DNA of 64,000 bases from the NCBI RefSeq assembly GCF_030341905.1, contig NZ_JATAAF010000001.1, positions 310,001-374,000 of the forward strand, written 5' to 3'. The position numbers and the translations under genes were made by a program. Positions 14,619 to 33,471 of the stretch are shown in pieces (positions within the stretch are counted from its first letter, which is position 1; the number at the start of each line of letters is the position of its first letter). Below the pieces are notes generated by a model. The model had not been told where the DNA came from, made no database searches, and saw only the letters and a program-made list of their open reading frames with translations. This DNA is from Porticoccus sp. W117 (GTDB taxonomy: Bacteria; Pseudomonadota; Gammaproteobacteria; Pseudomonadales; Porticoccaceae).

Positions 14619-15169
14619 AATACCTGACACTTTTCGCAGCCCTGCTGATTGCAGGTTGCAGCAGCACACCGCAAAGCAACTATTACCTGTTAAGCAGCAA
14701 AGCAACAGGCGCCAGTGCGCCCTGCGACTGCTCCATTGGTATTGGCCCGGTGACCGTGGCGGAATATCTGAATCGCCCACAGATCACGGTCAGCTCACAG
14801 GCCGGGCAACTCAACCTGGAACAGTTTCATCGCTGGGGGGAGCCACTGCAAAACAGCATTGAACGCGTCCTGCTGGAAAACCTTGCCACCCTCACCGGAT
14901 CCAGCGAGTTGGTGATACACCCCTGGCGACAAAGCCAGCAACCCCGCTACCGGGTGACGGTTAATGTGCTCACTATGGATAAAACGAATGGCAGTGCTAC
15001 CATCAAAGTGCAGTGGCACCTGACCAATACCGAAAACAAAAACGAGTCACCACAAACCCAGCTGGATACTTTTAGCAGCCCATTGGCGAACGATGAATAC
15101 AGCGCTCTTGCGGAAGGTTTTAGCGATGCTCTTTTGCAACTCAGCCAGAAGATTGCCAACAGCCTGTAG
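14615..15169 (+). CDS. ABC-type transport auxiliary lipoprotein (PqiC/DUF330-like)
   Basis: A 184-residue lipoprotein with signal YLTLFAALLIAGCSS; lipidation at the Cys anchors it, probably in the outer membrane. The mature part, SNYYLLSSKATGASAPCDCSIGIGPVTVAEYLNRPQI, matches the ABC transport auxiliary (DUF330/PqiC) family. These proteins accompany MCE complexes and are thought to dock the periplasmic tunnel at the outer membrane. It replaces the MlaC-MlaB pair of the classical Mla system, so the operon is closer to the Pqi-like class. It overlaps the MCE gene by four bases and is the last gene; a bidirectional terminator follows. Confidence 0.87.
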   Translation: MKYLTLFAALLIAGCSSTPQSNYYLLSSKATGASAPCDCSIGIGPVTVAEYLNRPQITVSSQAGQLNLEQFHRWGEPLQNSIERVLLENLATLTGSSELVIHPWRQSQQPRYRVTVNVLTMDKTNGSATIKVQWHLTNTENKNESPQTQLDTFSSPLANDEYSALAEGFSDALLQLSQKIANSL

Positions 15170-15250
15170 CCCGGGTGGAGCGCAGCGGAACCCGGGGACA
15201 GGGTTGGTTACAAACTTTCCCGGGTTCCGCTGCACTTCACCCGGGCTACA
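15166..15250. repeat. Intergenic GC-rich inverted repeat (TAGCCCGGGTGGAGCG type)
   Basis: The left arm TAGCCCGGGTGGAGCGCAGC continues to GGAACCCGGG. The right arm is its inverted copy, CCCGGGTTCCGCTGC to CACCCGGGCTA. This is a widespread dispersed repeat type in gammaproteobacteria. It overlaps the stop codon of the lipoprotein gene, so the insertion supplies that TAG. Confidence 0.8.
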
Positions 15251-15274
15251 TTCAGAATGACAAGCAAACAGGCA

Positions 15275-28486: not shown

Positions 28487-30727
28487 CTATTCATCATCGT
28501 AAATATCAAAATCAATCATCAATCGGGCATCTGAATCACCACCAACCCATGCCTGAAAACTTCCCGGTTCGGTGTTTAACTGCATGTCTCTGCCGTAAAA
28601 CGCCAGCTCATCGGTGTGCAGTGTAAAGGTGATGGTTTTTTGCTCTCCTGGCTGCAACAAGACCCGTTGAAATCCCTTTAACTCTTTTACCGGGCGAGTA
28701 ACGCTGCCCACCAGATCACGGATATACAGTTGTACAACTTCCTCACCGGCACAGTGCCCGGTGTTTTTAATATCCGCCACAATCTCAACCTGGCCTCCCA
28801 GGGCCACCTGTTGCCTGGCCATGCGGATGCCTGAGTATTCGAAGCAGGTATAGGACAGCCCATAGCCAAAAGGAAACAGTGGCCGGTAGTTCACATCCAG
28901 ATGGAACGACGCCATACCCAGAGAGGTTTGTTCCGGGCGCTCTGGAATATCTGCCATGGACAGACAGTTCACATCCGACACCGGGCGACCGGTATTTTTG
29001 TGGGCGTAGTAAATGGGAATCTGACCAACCGCACGTGGGAAGGTAACCGGCAACTTCCCGGAAGGCGCCTGAAAACCAAACAGCAAATCCGCAATAGCCG
29101 GGCCGCCCATAGTGCCTGGGTGCCAGGCATAGAGAATGCTATCGGCTTTATCGAGAATATTTTCAATGGTCAGCGGCCGACCGGCCATAACAACAACAAT
29201 CAGAGGCTTGCCTTCTTTCGCCAACGCATCGATCAGTGCCACCTGTTGGCCAGGCAAATCAATACTGGCCCGCGAGTGTGCCTCGCCGGACATAAAGGAT
29301 TCTTCACCCACGACAACGACAGTGGCATCACACTGGGCTGCCAATTCCAGTGCTTCTGAAAACTGCTCACAGGATTCAGAGCGGGTTGTCTGCAGGCCCT
29401 TGCAGTAACGTACATCCAGCTTATCGCCAACCAGGCGCTCAATGGCCGCTTTGCAAGTGACACTGTGGTGAGGATCACCATCAAATACCCAAGTGCCCAA
29501 CTGCTCATAATCATCGTCCGCCAATGGCCCGATCACGGCAATGGAGCTCATCTGATCGGCATTCAATGGCAGCACCTGGTTGTCATTCTTTAGCAGCACG
29601 CAGCTTTTTGCCGCTGATTGCTGCGCCACTTCAAGGTGATCCACATTGACCAAAGCGGGGTAATCCGCCGCTGAGGTATAGGGGTTATCAAACAACCCCA
29701 GGTCGAATTTAAGGGTGAGTATTCTGGCCACCATGCGATCGATCTGCGGAAGGTCGACACGGCCTTCATCCACCAACTGCTGTAAGTGGTGCTTGTAAGA
29801 CCTGCTGGCCATTTCCATATCGACACCGGCGTTAACCGCTTCGCAGGCAGACTCTTTGTCGTTGTGAGTAAAGCCGTGCACGCTGAGTTCAATCACGGAA
29901 TCCCAGTCACTGACAAGCAGCCCACGGTAATCCCACTCTTTTCTCAGTACGTCATCCAGCAACCAGCTGTTGCCGGTAGCTGGCACACCATTGAGATCAC
30001 AGAATGCGGTCATAAAAGACGCCACCCCGGAATCTGCCAATTTTTTGAATGGACGCAGGTACACATTGCGCAACTCATTTTCAGGTACGTTTACGGTGTT
30101 GTAGTCTTTGCCCGCCTCCGCCGCACCGTAAGCGGCAAAGTGTTTGGCACAGGCAGCGATGGCGCCCTTTTCAGACAACTTATCTCCCTGAAAACCATCC
30201 ACCATGGCAGCGCCCAGGGTCGCGCACAAATAGGGATCTTCCCCCAAAGACTCGGCAACACGCCCCCAACGGGGGTCGCGGCTAATGTCGATCATTGGTG
30301 CAAATGTCCAATTAACTCCACAGGAAGCGGCTTCCTGCGCACTGATACGGCAGGTTTGTTTTATCAGTTGTGGATCCCAGCTCGCTGCAAGCCCCAGCGG
30401 AATGGGGAATACTGTTTTGAAGCCGTGAATCACATCGCGGCCAATCAACAGAGGAATCCCCAGGCGGGTTTCCTCAATGCTGATGCGCTGCAATTCATTG
30501 ACAACATCAACATTCACTTCATTCAGTACAGAACCAACACGACCATGGCGGATATCATCTGCAAGGTGGTCAGGGATATGGCCACAGCCCGCTTGCAACT
30601 GGCTCATCTGACCAATTTTTTCATCCAGGTTCATTCTCTGAATCAGCTCAGAGACTTTTTCCTCTGTGGATTGCGGAATGCCAAACTCCCGGTCGTTTTG
30701 AATCGCCACGCTATTACTGCATAACAT
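28487..30727 (-). CDS. bglX: GH3 beta-glucosidase (BglX-type, with FnIII-like C-terminal domain)
   Basis: A 746-residue GH3 enzyme that removes glucose from the non-reducing ends of beta-glucosides. It has ELIQRMNLDEKIGQMSQLQA, FAPMIDISRDPRWGRVAESL, KHFAAYGAAEAGKDYNTVN and the nucleophile motif GLLVSDWDSVIEL. The alpha/beta sandwich ends near YGLSYTCFEYS, and an FnIII-like domain occupies the last 120 residues (VEIVADIKNTGHCAGEEVVQ, GFQRVLLQPGEQKTITF). Unlike many BglX proteins it has no signal peptide, so cytoplasmic action on oligosaccharides brought in by the GPH or sugar-porter transporters is expected. It is the first gene of the leftward trio and is separated by 11 bases from the start of the next gene. 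Confidence 0.93.
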   Translation of the reverse strand: MLCSNSVAIQNDREFGIPQSTEEKVSELIQRMNLDEKIGQMSQLQAGCGHIPDHLADDIRHGRVGSVLNEVNVDVVNELQRISIEETRLGIPLLIGRDVIHGFKTVFPIPLGLAASWDPQLIKQTCRISAQEAASCGVNWTFAPMIDISRDPRWGRVAESLGEDPYLCATLGAAMVDGFQGDKLSEKGAIAACAKHFAAYGAAEAGKDYNTVNVPENELRNVYLRPFKKLADSGVASFMTAFCDLNGVPATGNSWLLDDVLRKEWDYRGLLVSDWDSVIELSVHGFTHNDKESACEAVNAGVDMEMASRSYKHHLQQLVDEGRVDLPQIDRMVARILTLKFDLGLFDNPYTSAADYPALVNVDHLEVAQQSAAKSCVLLKNDNQVLPLNADQMSSIAVIGPLADDDYEQLGTWVFDGDPHHSVTCKAAIERLVGDKLDVRYCKGLQTTRSESCEQFSEALELAAQCDATVVVVGEESFMSGEAHSRASIDLPGQQVALIDALAKEGKPLIVVVMAGRPLTIENILDKADSILYAWHPGTMGGPAIADLLFGFQAPSGKLPVTFPRAVGQIPIYYAHKNTGRPVSDVNCLSMADIPERPEQTSLGMASFHLDVNYRPLFPFGYGLSYTCFEYSGIRMARQQVALGGQVEIVADIKNTGHCAGEEVVQLYIRDLVGSVTRPVKELKGFQRVLLQPGEQKTITFTLHTDELAFYGRDMQLNTEPGSFQAWVGGDSDARLMIDFDIYDDE

Positions 30728-30800
30728 ATTTTTATCGTCTCTTTTTATATCTGCGTTGCAGGGTCAGGTTCGGCCAATCAGTTTTTGACCTGTTGTCTTT

Positions 30801-31067
30801 AGGGCACTTCTAATAATTGCTTGCGGCCTCTGGCTTTCAGGCTGGTTCGCCATCAAGGCGCGGCTTCGCAGGCATGCTGATTGCCTGTCAAGAAGGCGCA
30901 ACACCGAGGGCGGAGCAGCCTGAAAGCCCCGAAGGGCGCGGCCTGACAAGCGTTATCGCCGTGTTGGCTCGCTTGCCAAGGACAACCAGCCTTGCCCTGC
31001 GCGGGCCGCCTTGCGATAACGCTTGTCAGATTGCGCAGAGGCCATAATCAATTTTTAGAAGTGCCCT
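30801..31067. mobile_element. 267-bp MITE-like element with 19-bp terminal inverted repeats
   Basis: The left end AGGGCACTTCTAATAATTG and the inverted right end AGGGCACTTCTAAAAATTG differ at one base. Inside are further exact inverted repeats: 12 bp GGCTTTCAGGCT (30832-30843 with 30917-30928) and a 17-bp arm pair CTGACAAGCGTTATCGC (30943-30959 with 31013-31029). No transposase is encoded; the short open frame inside does not resemble a protein. I see no clear target-site duplication (left flank GTCTTT, right flank TGAGTT). It lies in the 639-base gap between the BglX-like gene and the GPH transporter, whose remaining 260 bases upstream of the transporter show no clear motif. Confidence 0.75.
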
Positions 31068-31366
31068 TGAGTTACAGAGATTGTCACAGTAAAAATTAAA
31101 GTTTCGGTGGCTTATAGACAATACAAACGGGACAGGCTGGTTCGGAGATGAGATAACTCGGACAAACGCATCGCTGCAATCGGAGTTTTGTAGGCAAATA
31201 GCGTAGAAGGCTGTTTTTTCGACTATAAATCAAATATCCCGGCAACCATAAGCCAGTGGCAGCCAACTTGTCTCGCGACAGGTGCCATTCAACGCATATT
31301 CATGTGCTTGCAGAGTGATCCCGGCTAGTCTTGGATCGAAATCATAACAACAGAACATTCTGGCCC

Positions 31367-32815
31367 ATGGCACAGGAACATTACCAAACCGCTCCCCAAG
31401 ACCGCATTCCGCTTGTTAAAAAGCTGATATACGGCACCGGTGCCTTTGTTAATAATCTGCTGGCTGCCGCTATTGGCGGGATGACAATTGTGCTGAATTT
31501 AGGGTTGGGTATGAACCCGGCACTGGTTGGTCTTTTGGGTGCCCTGCCACGACTCACCGATGCCATCACCGACCCACTGATGGGTTATATCTCAGACAAT
31601 ACAAAATCAAAGTGGGGGCGCAGGCGGCCCTATATTTTTTGGGGTGCCATTGCTGCCGGTTTTATTTTTGCCCTGCTGTGGCAGCTGCCTGAAGGGCAAA
31701 GTGAATCTTACTATTTCTGGTTTTTTCTCACCGGGTCTTTCATCTTCTACCTGGCCTATACGGTTTTCGCTACTCCTTGGGTAGCTCTTGGCTACGAGTT
31801 GACACCGGACTATCACGAAAGAACCCGATTGATGGCGGTACAAAACTTTATGGGGCAAATGGCTTATTTAATTGCCCCCTGGTTTCTGTTTTTTATGCAG
31901 CTGGAGTGGTTTGGCGGCATGGTCAACGGGGCCGGCTGGCTAGCCATTATTATCGCGGCTTTCACCATTTTTGTTGGCGTGTTGCCGGCAATCTTTTTGA
32001 AAGAAGTTCACAGAAAACGTCCACCGCCACAACGTACAGAAACTGGCGACAACAACAAAAGTCAATTTGAAGAGTTTCCAACAGGTATAAAAGGATTTTT
32101 TGCGGGCTTTGTCGCCACCATAAAATTTAAACCGTTTCTCTATCTATGCGCTGCTACCTTCCTGGTTTTTAATGGTTTTATGCTGGTTTCATCTTTCCAG
32201 TTTTATGTGATTATTTATTACGTTTTTGGTGGCGACCAAGAGTTGGGGGCACAGTACGCAGGCTGGGCCGGTACGCTATCGGCAATTGCTACATTTTGCG
32301 TTATTTTTATTGTCAGCTGGATGTCGTCCAAAATCGGCAAACGAAATACGTTCTATGTGGCTATCGGTATTTCAGTGGTCGGCTATGGCCTGAAATGGCT
32401 GTGTTACTCACCCGCCACACCATGGTTATTATTGCTACCAACACCACTGATGGCATTTGGCCTCGGCGGGTTATTTACATTAATGGGTTCCATGATCGCC
32501 GATGTCTGCGACATGGATGAACTGGAAACCAAACAACGCCGTGAAGGCATGTTTGGCTCCATTTACTGGTGGGTAGTGAAGCTGGGCATGGCTGCAGCCA
32601 TCGCCATCGGCGGCTTTTTGCTCAATGCCACCGGCTTTGATGTGGCCCTTGAAGGCAACCAAAGCGAACAAACTATTTTCCTGATGCGGTTGTTCGATGT
32701 ACTGATCCCCATGTTCGCCTCACTGCTGGCGATCTGGGCCGTCAGTCGCTACCCAATTACCGAGCAAAAAGCTCACGAAATACGCCTGCAGTTAGAGGCA
32801 AGTCGCTCCGGCTGA
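31367..32815 (+). CDS. GPH-family (glycoside-pentoside-hexuronide) sugar:cation symporter
   Basis: About 482 residues with 12 membrane segments, belonging to the GPH family of Na+ or H+ coupled sugar symporters (MelB/XynB-like branch of MFS). Typical parts are LIYGTGAFVNNLLAAAIGGM at the N-terminus, LPRLTDAITDPLMGYISDNT with the conserved Asp of the cation site, and KSKWGRRRPYIFWGAIAAG. A charged central loop (HRKRPPPQRTETGDNN) separates the halves. It is divergent from the GH3-GH-GH3 trio, so import of oligosaccharides for the cytoplasmic GH3 enzymes is likely. The start is uncertain: ATG 31367 (MAQEHYQTAP) has no clear ribosome-binding site; a TTG at 31331 is the alternative. Confidence 0.85.
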   Translation: MAQEHYQTAPQDRIPLVKKLIYGTGAFVNNLLAAAIGGMTIVLNLGLGMNPALVGLLGALPRLTDAITDPLMGYISDNTKSKWGRRRPYIFWGAIAAGFIFALLWQLPEGQSESYYFWFFLTGSFIFYLAYTVFATPWVALGYELTPDYHERTRLMAVQNFMGQMAYLIAPWFLFFMQLEWFGGMVNGAGWLAIIIAAFTIFVGVLPAIFLKEVHRKRPPPQRTETGDNNKSQFEEFPTGIKGFFAGFVATIKFKPFLYLCAATFLVFNGFMLVSSFQFYVIIYYVFGGDQELGAQYAGWAGTLSAIATFCVIFIVSWMSSKIGKRNTFYVAIGISVVGYGLKWLCYSPATPWLLLLPTPLMAFGLGGLFTLMGSMIADVCDMDELETKQRREGMFGSIYWWVVKLGMAAAIAIGGFLLNATGFDVALEGNQSEQTIFLMRLFDVLIPMFASLLAIWAVSRYPITEQKAHEIRLQLEASRSG

Positions 32816-32890: not shown

Positions 32891-33217
32891 TCAGCGAATA
32901 ATGGTAACCGCCAAACTGGTAGCTCGCTCTATGAGTGCAGTCGGAGCCTTTTCAACGAACTCAACACCCCGGCTGTCCACATCCAGCGAGCGCAGTTGGT
33001 GAATTAAAACCACTCCCTGAGAATTTGTTCCCTCAAGCTCAACTTCCAGTGCCATTCCTCGCTTGGTGCTGGTGATAGGAGCGACAATGGCAAACCCCGT
33101 ATGCTCATTGAACATCTGGCGAGAAATCACTAGCGCCGGGCGACGCTTCATAATTTCATTTCCAGCACTGGGGTCAAAACTCAAAGTAACGATGTCTCCT
33201 TTCTCTGGTACGTACAT
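32891..33217 (-). CDS. MazF/PemK-family endoribonuclease toxin
   Basis: A 108-residue protein with the MazF/CcdB-like fold signatures: VPEKGDIVTLSFDPSAGNEI, KRRPALVISRQMFNEHTGF, VAPITSTKRG and QGVVLIHQLRSLD. MazF-type toxins cut mRNA at short motifs and stop growth when the unstable antitoxin decays. The start codon overlaps the last base of the antitoxin gene, the usual coupled order antitoxin then toxin. It stands alone between the GPH transporter and gltD, so the pair was probably acquired as a unit. Confidence 0.9.
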   Translation of the reverse strand: MYVPEKGDIVTLSFDPSAGNEIMKRRPALVISRQMFNEHTGFAIVAPITSTKRGMALEVELEGTNSQGVVLIHQLRSLDVDSRGVEFVEKAPTALIERATSLAVTIIR

Positions 33218-33471
33218 TAGATTTCCTTATCTGTATGGATGGCGTCAATCCACTCCCGATCTTCATCAGTAACCTGAAAGCACTCTCTGGGGCTATTAGC
33301 CAGCAGTTCTTCCAAAGATTGTTCATCTTCAATAGGCGTCAAAACAATCCGGTTATCAACAATGGATAAATCCAGTTTTGAGCCTACCTGTAATCCCAGT
33401 GTTTTGACGATAGCCTTGGGAATGCTGACGATGTTCGCTCCACCTGATTGGCGTACAGCAACGGCTGTCAT
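33217..33471 (-). CDS. MazE-type (AbrB/SpoVT-fold) antitoxin
   Basis: An 84-residue protein. The N-terminal half is the swapped-hairpin AbrB DNA-binding domain (VRQSGGANIVSIPKAIVKTL, LQVGSKLDLSIVDNRIVLTP). The acidic C-terminal tail (EDEQSLEELLANSPRECFQV) should wrap and inhibit the toxin. Such antitoxins repress their own promoter; the 116-base gap upstream to gltD should hold it, but no operator is obvious. It overlaps the toxin gene by one base. Confidence 0.88.
   Translation of the reverse strand: MTAVAVRQSGGANIVSIPKAIVKTLGLQVGSKLDLSIVDNRIVLTPIEDEQSLEELLANSPRECFQVTDEDREWIDAIHTDKEI

Follow-up and report, generated by a model that had tools for sequence, protein, structure and literature searches.

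A MITE-like element with IS5-type ends and a conserved two-hairpin interior between sugar genes of Porticoccus sp. W117

MITEs and ERIC sequences are already known; how ERIC-type repeats are moved, and why they have retained their fold, are to our knowledge still open questions. NEMIS are short, have terminal repeats and give a folded transcript. The Correia and YPAL elements answer to the same description in two papers (PMC10969869 and PMC2759123), and the likeness of all three to the element analysed in the present study is by description only. For ERIC, the same papers report a TA duplication (PMC2759123) and a host range of Enterobacteriaceae and Vibrionaceae (PMC10969869), and the mechanism of ERIC transfer is stated there not to have been elucidated (PMC2759123). 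A paper of 2011 that deals with ERIC in genomes of Gammaproteobacteria, cited in PMC10969869, may overlap with the present work. In the open-access literature we recognised no paper describing the family reported below outside ERIC and, as far as these searches show, an IS5-type parent for the family, its two-module form and a core common to different ends within the order are new.

The element lies at positions 30801–31067 of the window, by which we mean the whole 64000-nucleotide stretch of Porticoccus sp. W117 DNA that was analysed, between a divergent GH3 glycosidase gene and an MFS sugar transporter gene. A preliminary description of this DNA had placed it between divergent glycosidase and transporter genes, which was correct, and had called it a MITE-like element with inverted repeats, which was borne out by the terminal repeats, a second copy, an empty site and the target duplications of the family (see below). 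As that description had also stated, the outermost 19 bp read inward from both ends differ by one mismatch; the extended terminal arms reach 32 nt (88%). Its two internal pairs of hairpin arms exist as well, 30832–30854 with 30906–30928 (23 nt, 87%) and 30936–30959 with 31013–31036 (24 nt, 88%), but they had been called perfect, whereas they contain perfect runs and are not perfect over their full length. Like a MITE, the element is short, has terminal inverted repeats and carries no transposase gene; two open frames (76 and 61 aa) fall within it or overlap it. As a single strand it was far more stable than its shuffled versions (z of −10.3 as DNA and −10.3 as RNA), with none of 200 shuffles as good in either case. 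The earlier account did not recognise that the interior has a conserved fold, which other elements share. The features are as follows.

28487..30727, minus strand: GH3 glycosidase gene, its start 74 bp from the element
30798..30801, unstranded: presumed 4-bp target duplication, left copy (TTTA), from flank comparison over 72 elements; three of four bases equal those of the right copy
30802..30831, plus strand: left terminal inverted repeat and outer stem, starting GGGCACTTCTAA; the same end type occurs on IS5-family IS
30832..30928, plus strand: module A, an inner hairpin with the loop pair CAAGGCG / CAACACCG at 30854–30906 on the plus strand
30929..30935, unstranded: short link joining the two hairpins at the junction
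30936..31036, minus strand: module B, an inner hairpin that matches the 140-bp core, with the loop pair at 30959–31013 on the minus strand
31037..31066, minus strand: right terminal inverted repeat and outer stem
31067..31070, unstranded: presumed target duplication, right copy (TTGA), from flank comparison
31331..32815, plus strand: MFS sugar transporter gene

The preliminary description had proposed to look for further copies in the genome and for empty sites in relatives, and had named a single copy kept at this same place in relatives as the contrary outcome; on both counts the opposite was found. The same genome contains, on another contig and between different flanks, a second copy (G000:C21:15017-15283) that is 96% identical. 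In the one comparable genome of the same genus (G001, transporter protein 96% identical), the orthologous intergenic region aligns on both sides and is without the element; G002, the only other genome of the genus searched, gave no transporter match. Matches to this long form were obtained in 4 of the 112 genomes of the bacterial family, own genome included, that in G001 being short and weak. Exact 4-bp duplications flank 33 of 72 elements with such ends (shuffled mean 5.7, maximum 13) and 5-bp duplications none of the 72, the end pairs having been collected from the examined loci by a tolerant pattern that kept in a few chance pairings (e.g. 413 and 414 bp). At the window copy, three of the four bases match (TTTA versus TTGA). 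Exactly 140 bp was the length of 32 of the 72 end pairs. Neither the plasmid nor the phage collection contained a match to the window element or to a 140-bp relative, and a 236-bp relative had none among the plasmids.

Other sizes were seen in particular genomes. Elements of 140, 188 and 236 bp, in steps of 48 bp, occur in G127 (L131–L141 and others), where those of 188 and 236 bp have exact 4-bp duplications in 11 of 11 cases. In G145 (L128, L129 and L130), palindromes of 34–36 bp consist of two ends only and carry private mutations common to both arms; two of three have exact 4-bp duplications. Sizes in G296 apparently range from 140 to 290 bp when the listed ends are paired; the ends matched 50 times there and 0 times in the control.

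We consider it probable that the window element is a non-autonomous miniature transposable element, served in trans by an IS5-family (NF033581-type) transposase and carrying a selected two-hairpin structure between its ends. The GGGCACYTCTAA ends would be what the transposase recognises, and insertion would duplicate a mostly AT-rich target of 4 bp. Between the ends, the selected structure would comprise two opposed hairpins with a common conserved internal-loop motif, the same type of core that, singly, makes up the 140-bp relatives and that resembles the centre of ERIC. We infer that it is as a folded strand that this structure acts, RNA made by read-through transcription being the most likely form.

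The preliminary description could not name a parent; an IS5-family IS with the same ends can now be given. A 1201-bp IS of G296 is bordered by ends of this kind and encodes a 334-aa transposase, which belongs to the IS5 family by NCBIfam (NF033581, transpos_IS5_4; 251 bits, cut-off 140) and matches DUF772 and DDE_Tnp_1 of Pfam. The ends of this IS are imperfect (GGGCACCTCT / GGGAACCTCC), and its flanks hold no exact 4-bp duplication. A scan of genome contigs yielded 70 loci with relatives. Among them, the IS copies of Azotobacter vinelandii CA (L319–L323) have perfect GGGCACCTCTAAAAAC ends in five of five cases and exact 4-bp duplications in four of five, and an IS copy in a Bacteroidetes MAG (L360) has GGGCACTTCTAAAAAC ends and a TTAA duplication; at many other loci the ends were unreadable by the search or different, e.g. 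GGGCACCTCGAA in Duganella and others. Thus some IS members of the NF033581 type share GGGCACYTCTAAAAAC ends and a 4-bp target duplication with the element, but are approximately 1.2 kb long with a transposase of approximately 330 aa, whereas the element has none. A transposase of this family above the cut-off was found in 6 of the 18 carrier genomes searched; in the window's genome no intact NF033581-type transposase was detected, only two fragments below the cut-off. A transposase of this type probably moves the window element. The family member in G145 has one readable end, GGGCACCTCTAAAAAT followed by TTAA; it is apparently truncated, because its match stops at profile position 259 of 285 and the examined stretch showed no second end. 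An IS5-type IS of G010 (ends GGGAACCTCTGA) was rejected as a parent, since its ends and its CTAG-type target differ. A scan of viral contigs for the ends yielded 18 contigs but no convincing IS, a few poor chance partners at 985–1777 bp having been set aside.

The commonest form of the family here is shorter. By DNA similarity, a form of approximately 140 bp, running from GGG to CCC, was present in 16 of the 144 relatives, own genome included. RNAalifold analysis of 29 such elements gave 49 pairs, 21 of them with compensatory changes. With E limited to 1e-5, a covariance model (R1) built without the window element detected the fold in 75 of the 341 genomes from the order, which fall into 45 of 131 genera, a survey that counts genomes rather than copies, with nine candidates scored per genome in the matches shown. 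On 62 loci, 81 R1 matches had an E of 0.001 or less. For covariation, R1 was rerun on 59 of the 62 loci and 60 matches with E up to 4e-14 were kept; this left out the modules in L001, L002 and L040, one further match in L215 and matches to the opposite strand of elements already counted. In these 60 matches, whose alignment was fitted to the structure and leans towards it, 93.9% of the cells pair, two-sided changes occur in 43 of the 49 pairs (39.3 in shuffles) and the covariation score is 0.691, compared with 0.217 when shuffled and at most 0.12 when slid. The unpaired loop letters AAGG, GAG, AC and TGA are largely conserved while the stems change.

The ends of the 140-bp elements differ between lineages, and a length of close to 140 bp is found again, as is the core, with quite different ones (GGAACCTCTGA, CAGGCTGTTGA, GAGACCTTTGCACGA, AAACCTGATTAAAAACG and others). 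Cores were 86–91% identical while the ends were unlike in the contrasts on which we rely (L241 or L258 versus L233, L234 and L225); L241 versus L258 and L224 versus L214 or L223 were set aside as one-base register shifts. At L230:1501-1839 (G354) several cores stand head to tail. L211 and L217 have a similar right flank at a reading-frame end, but the sequences of their outer stems are different and yet remain paired, which looks like an in-place change of one element. The first internal loop has a k-turn-like look, judged by eye, on which no claim is made.

R1 matched the window once, at 30936–31036 on the minus strand (31.1 bits, E of 1.5e-5 in 64 kb), and a second model built from the 60 short-form matches (R2) gave the same module 32.0 bits. 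Module B matches the short core. For module A there are the loop-pair motif and a weak R2 match (30823–30939, plus strand, 22.1 bits), lower than that of an unrelated palindrome (23.2 bits). Each strand of the long form has one loop pair CAAGGCG..CAACAC(C/G)G, and for this reason we read the sequence as probably containing two cores in opposite orientation within one pair of ends. Six long elements from four genera (67–96% alike) have a three-way junction in common. Over these six sequences, two-sided changes were seen in 35 of 104 pairs (19.3 when shuffled), with a covariation score of 0.346; shuffling gave 0.152 and sliding no more than 0.10. The long form is a two-module, three-way-junction variant of the family, without the apical hairpin of the short core, and many paired changes in both forms indicate, at the level of aligned sequence, that the fold is kept.

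The core of the short form also recalls ERIC. A 44-base sequence, which we take to be the ERIC centre, was found in 5375 of 5426 E. coli genomes, and one ERIC locus, between ybhJ and ybhI, was analysed in four E. coli isolates (two variants) and K-12. The matches to ERIC lay at the element borders with both models, with 15.2 and 14.0 bits for R1 and 26.2 and 23.2 bits for R2. An unrelated plain palindrome at 15165–15250 of the window also gave 23.2 bits with R2, so that part of any R2 score reflects a mere hairpin and bits alone are indecisive. In 100 kb of K-12 (two 50-kb stretches, one chosen to contain the ybhJ–ybhI ERIC and one arbitrary), the single R2 match at E up to 10 was ERIC, end to end, with 23.2 bits and an E of 0.0041. 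The 140-bp relatives and the ybhJ–ybhI locus share the motif order AAGG – AG(C/T)NTA – TANRTGA – GAG – RACRN. This five-part motif, written after seeing ERIC, is present in 34 of the 60 and 16 of the 29 elements and in the ERIC loci, occurs in the 100 kb of K-12 only in ERIC and was found neither in 600434 background bases nor in 20000 random sequences. Judged from the one ERIC locus examined, the core and ERIC are likely to be of common descent. ERIC, like the family, is an imperfect palindrome, and it is intergenic at the locus read; comparison with this one locus favours an ERIC-like central core and palindromic fold for the 140-bp relatives, but only partly for the long form of the window. 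Unlike ERIC, the window element is built of two modules between IS5-type ends, with no apical ERIC-like hairpin; its family duplicates 4 bp, not the TA given for ERIC in PMC2759123. In Rfam, the E. coli ERIC copy L262 matched V_AS5 (RF02818) over its full length with 46.4 bits (gathering score 96). No Rfam family was found in window 30501–31401 at E up to 1, in six sources with E limited to 0.5 or, in seven further relatives, over the element, and neither the window element nor the relatives searched reached the gathering score.

The recurrence of one core under different ends suggests that many intergenic repeats in the order may be one structured family, and one structured core may well be common to elements using several transposases. 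As a wider and tentative reading, which we regard as a serious possibility, one structured motif, probably RNA, would be found throughout the Gammaproteobacteria in miniature elements, ERIC included, whose many ends are unrelated and whose transposases differ; selection would act on this motif as a mobile RNA module changing vehicles, and the ends would be interchangeable. With IS5-type ends, matching IS copies in the laboratory organism Azotobacter vinelandii and a measurable conserved core, the questions of how ERIC-type repeats move and why their fold persists become testable.

The strand data bear on whether the core acts as RNA. In the RNAalifold structure of the short form there were 144 G-U cells and 10 A-C cells, and the same strand folded better in 29 of 29 elements; part of this contrast comes from the prediction itself, since it fell to 19 versus 6 when the structure was predicted without G-U pairs. 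The 60 short-form matches had 238 G-U and 54 A-C cells. In the long form, with the structure predicted for the plus strand, the counts were 15 versus 1 for module A and 16 versus 13 for module B, and the strand preference of the short form was not seen in module B. The short-form contrast argues against action as double- or single-stranded DNA (a protein site or a cruciform) and hints at RNA, although single-stranded DNA could give the same contrast. The orientation of 83 elements with flanks, on crude gene calls, showed no clear preference relative to neighbouring genes (upstream 33 same and 43 opposite, downstream 32 and 43; seven inside a frame, others counted), which favours action as DNA, as does the occurrence of the loop pair once per strand in the long form. 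Action as DNA, which is compatible with the other readings, is thus possible, if somewhat doubtful.

It is unlikely that the element is an ordinary MITE with a passive interior, in which the pairing would come only from a palindromic origin and arm-to-arm correction. The ends and target duplications would suffice for mobility, and the interior seems unneeded for insertion because the ends-only palindromes of G145 exist, two of three with exact duplications. However, loop letters that are conserved where stems change, and a length and core that recur with other ends, speak against a passive filling. Moreover, no core was found by R1 or R2 in 25 PF01609 transposase loci or by R2 in 13 loci with the parent type of IS, and so the core is not an IS leftover in those loci.

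That the element is instead a fixed, non-mobile regulator of the sugar genes, as its position between them might suggest, is very improbable and was already disfavoured given the copy on another contig, the empty orthologous site in G001 and the result of a simple scan of 30700–31400, which found no sigma-70-like match (0.8 expected) and leaves the earlier proposal of the element as a promoter source unsupported.

Two further features of the window were noted. A near-perfect palindrome of approximately 90 bp with CCCGGGT arms, at 15162–15253, is a distinct repeat that appears to the fold model as a plain hairpin. At 32891–33471, on the minus strand, two small adjacent genes have the look of a MazE/MazF-type pair, judged from their reading frames.
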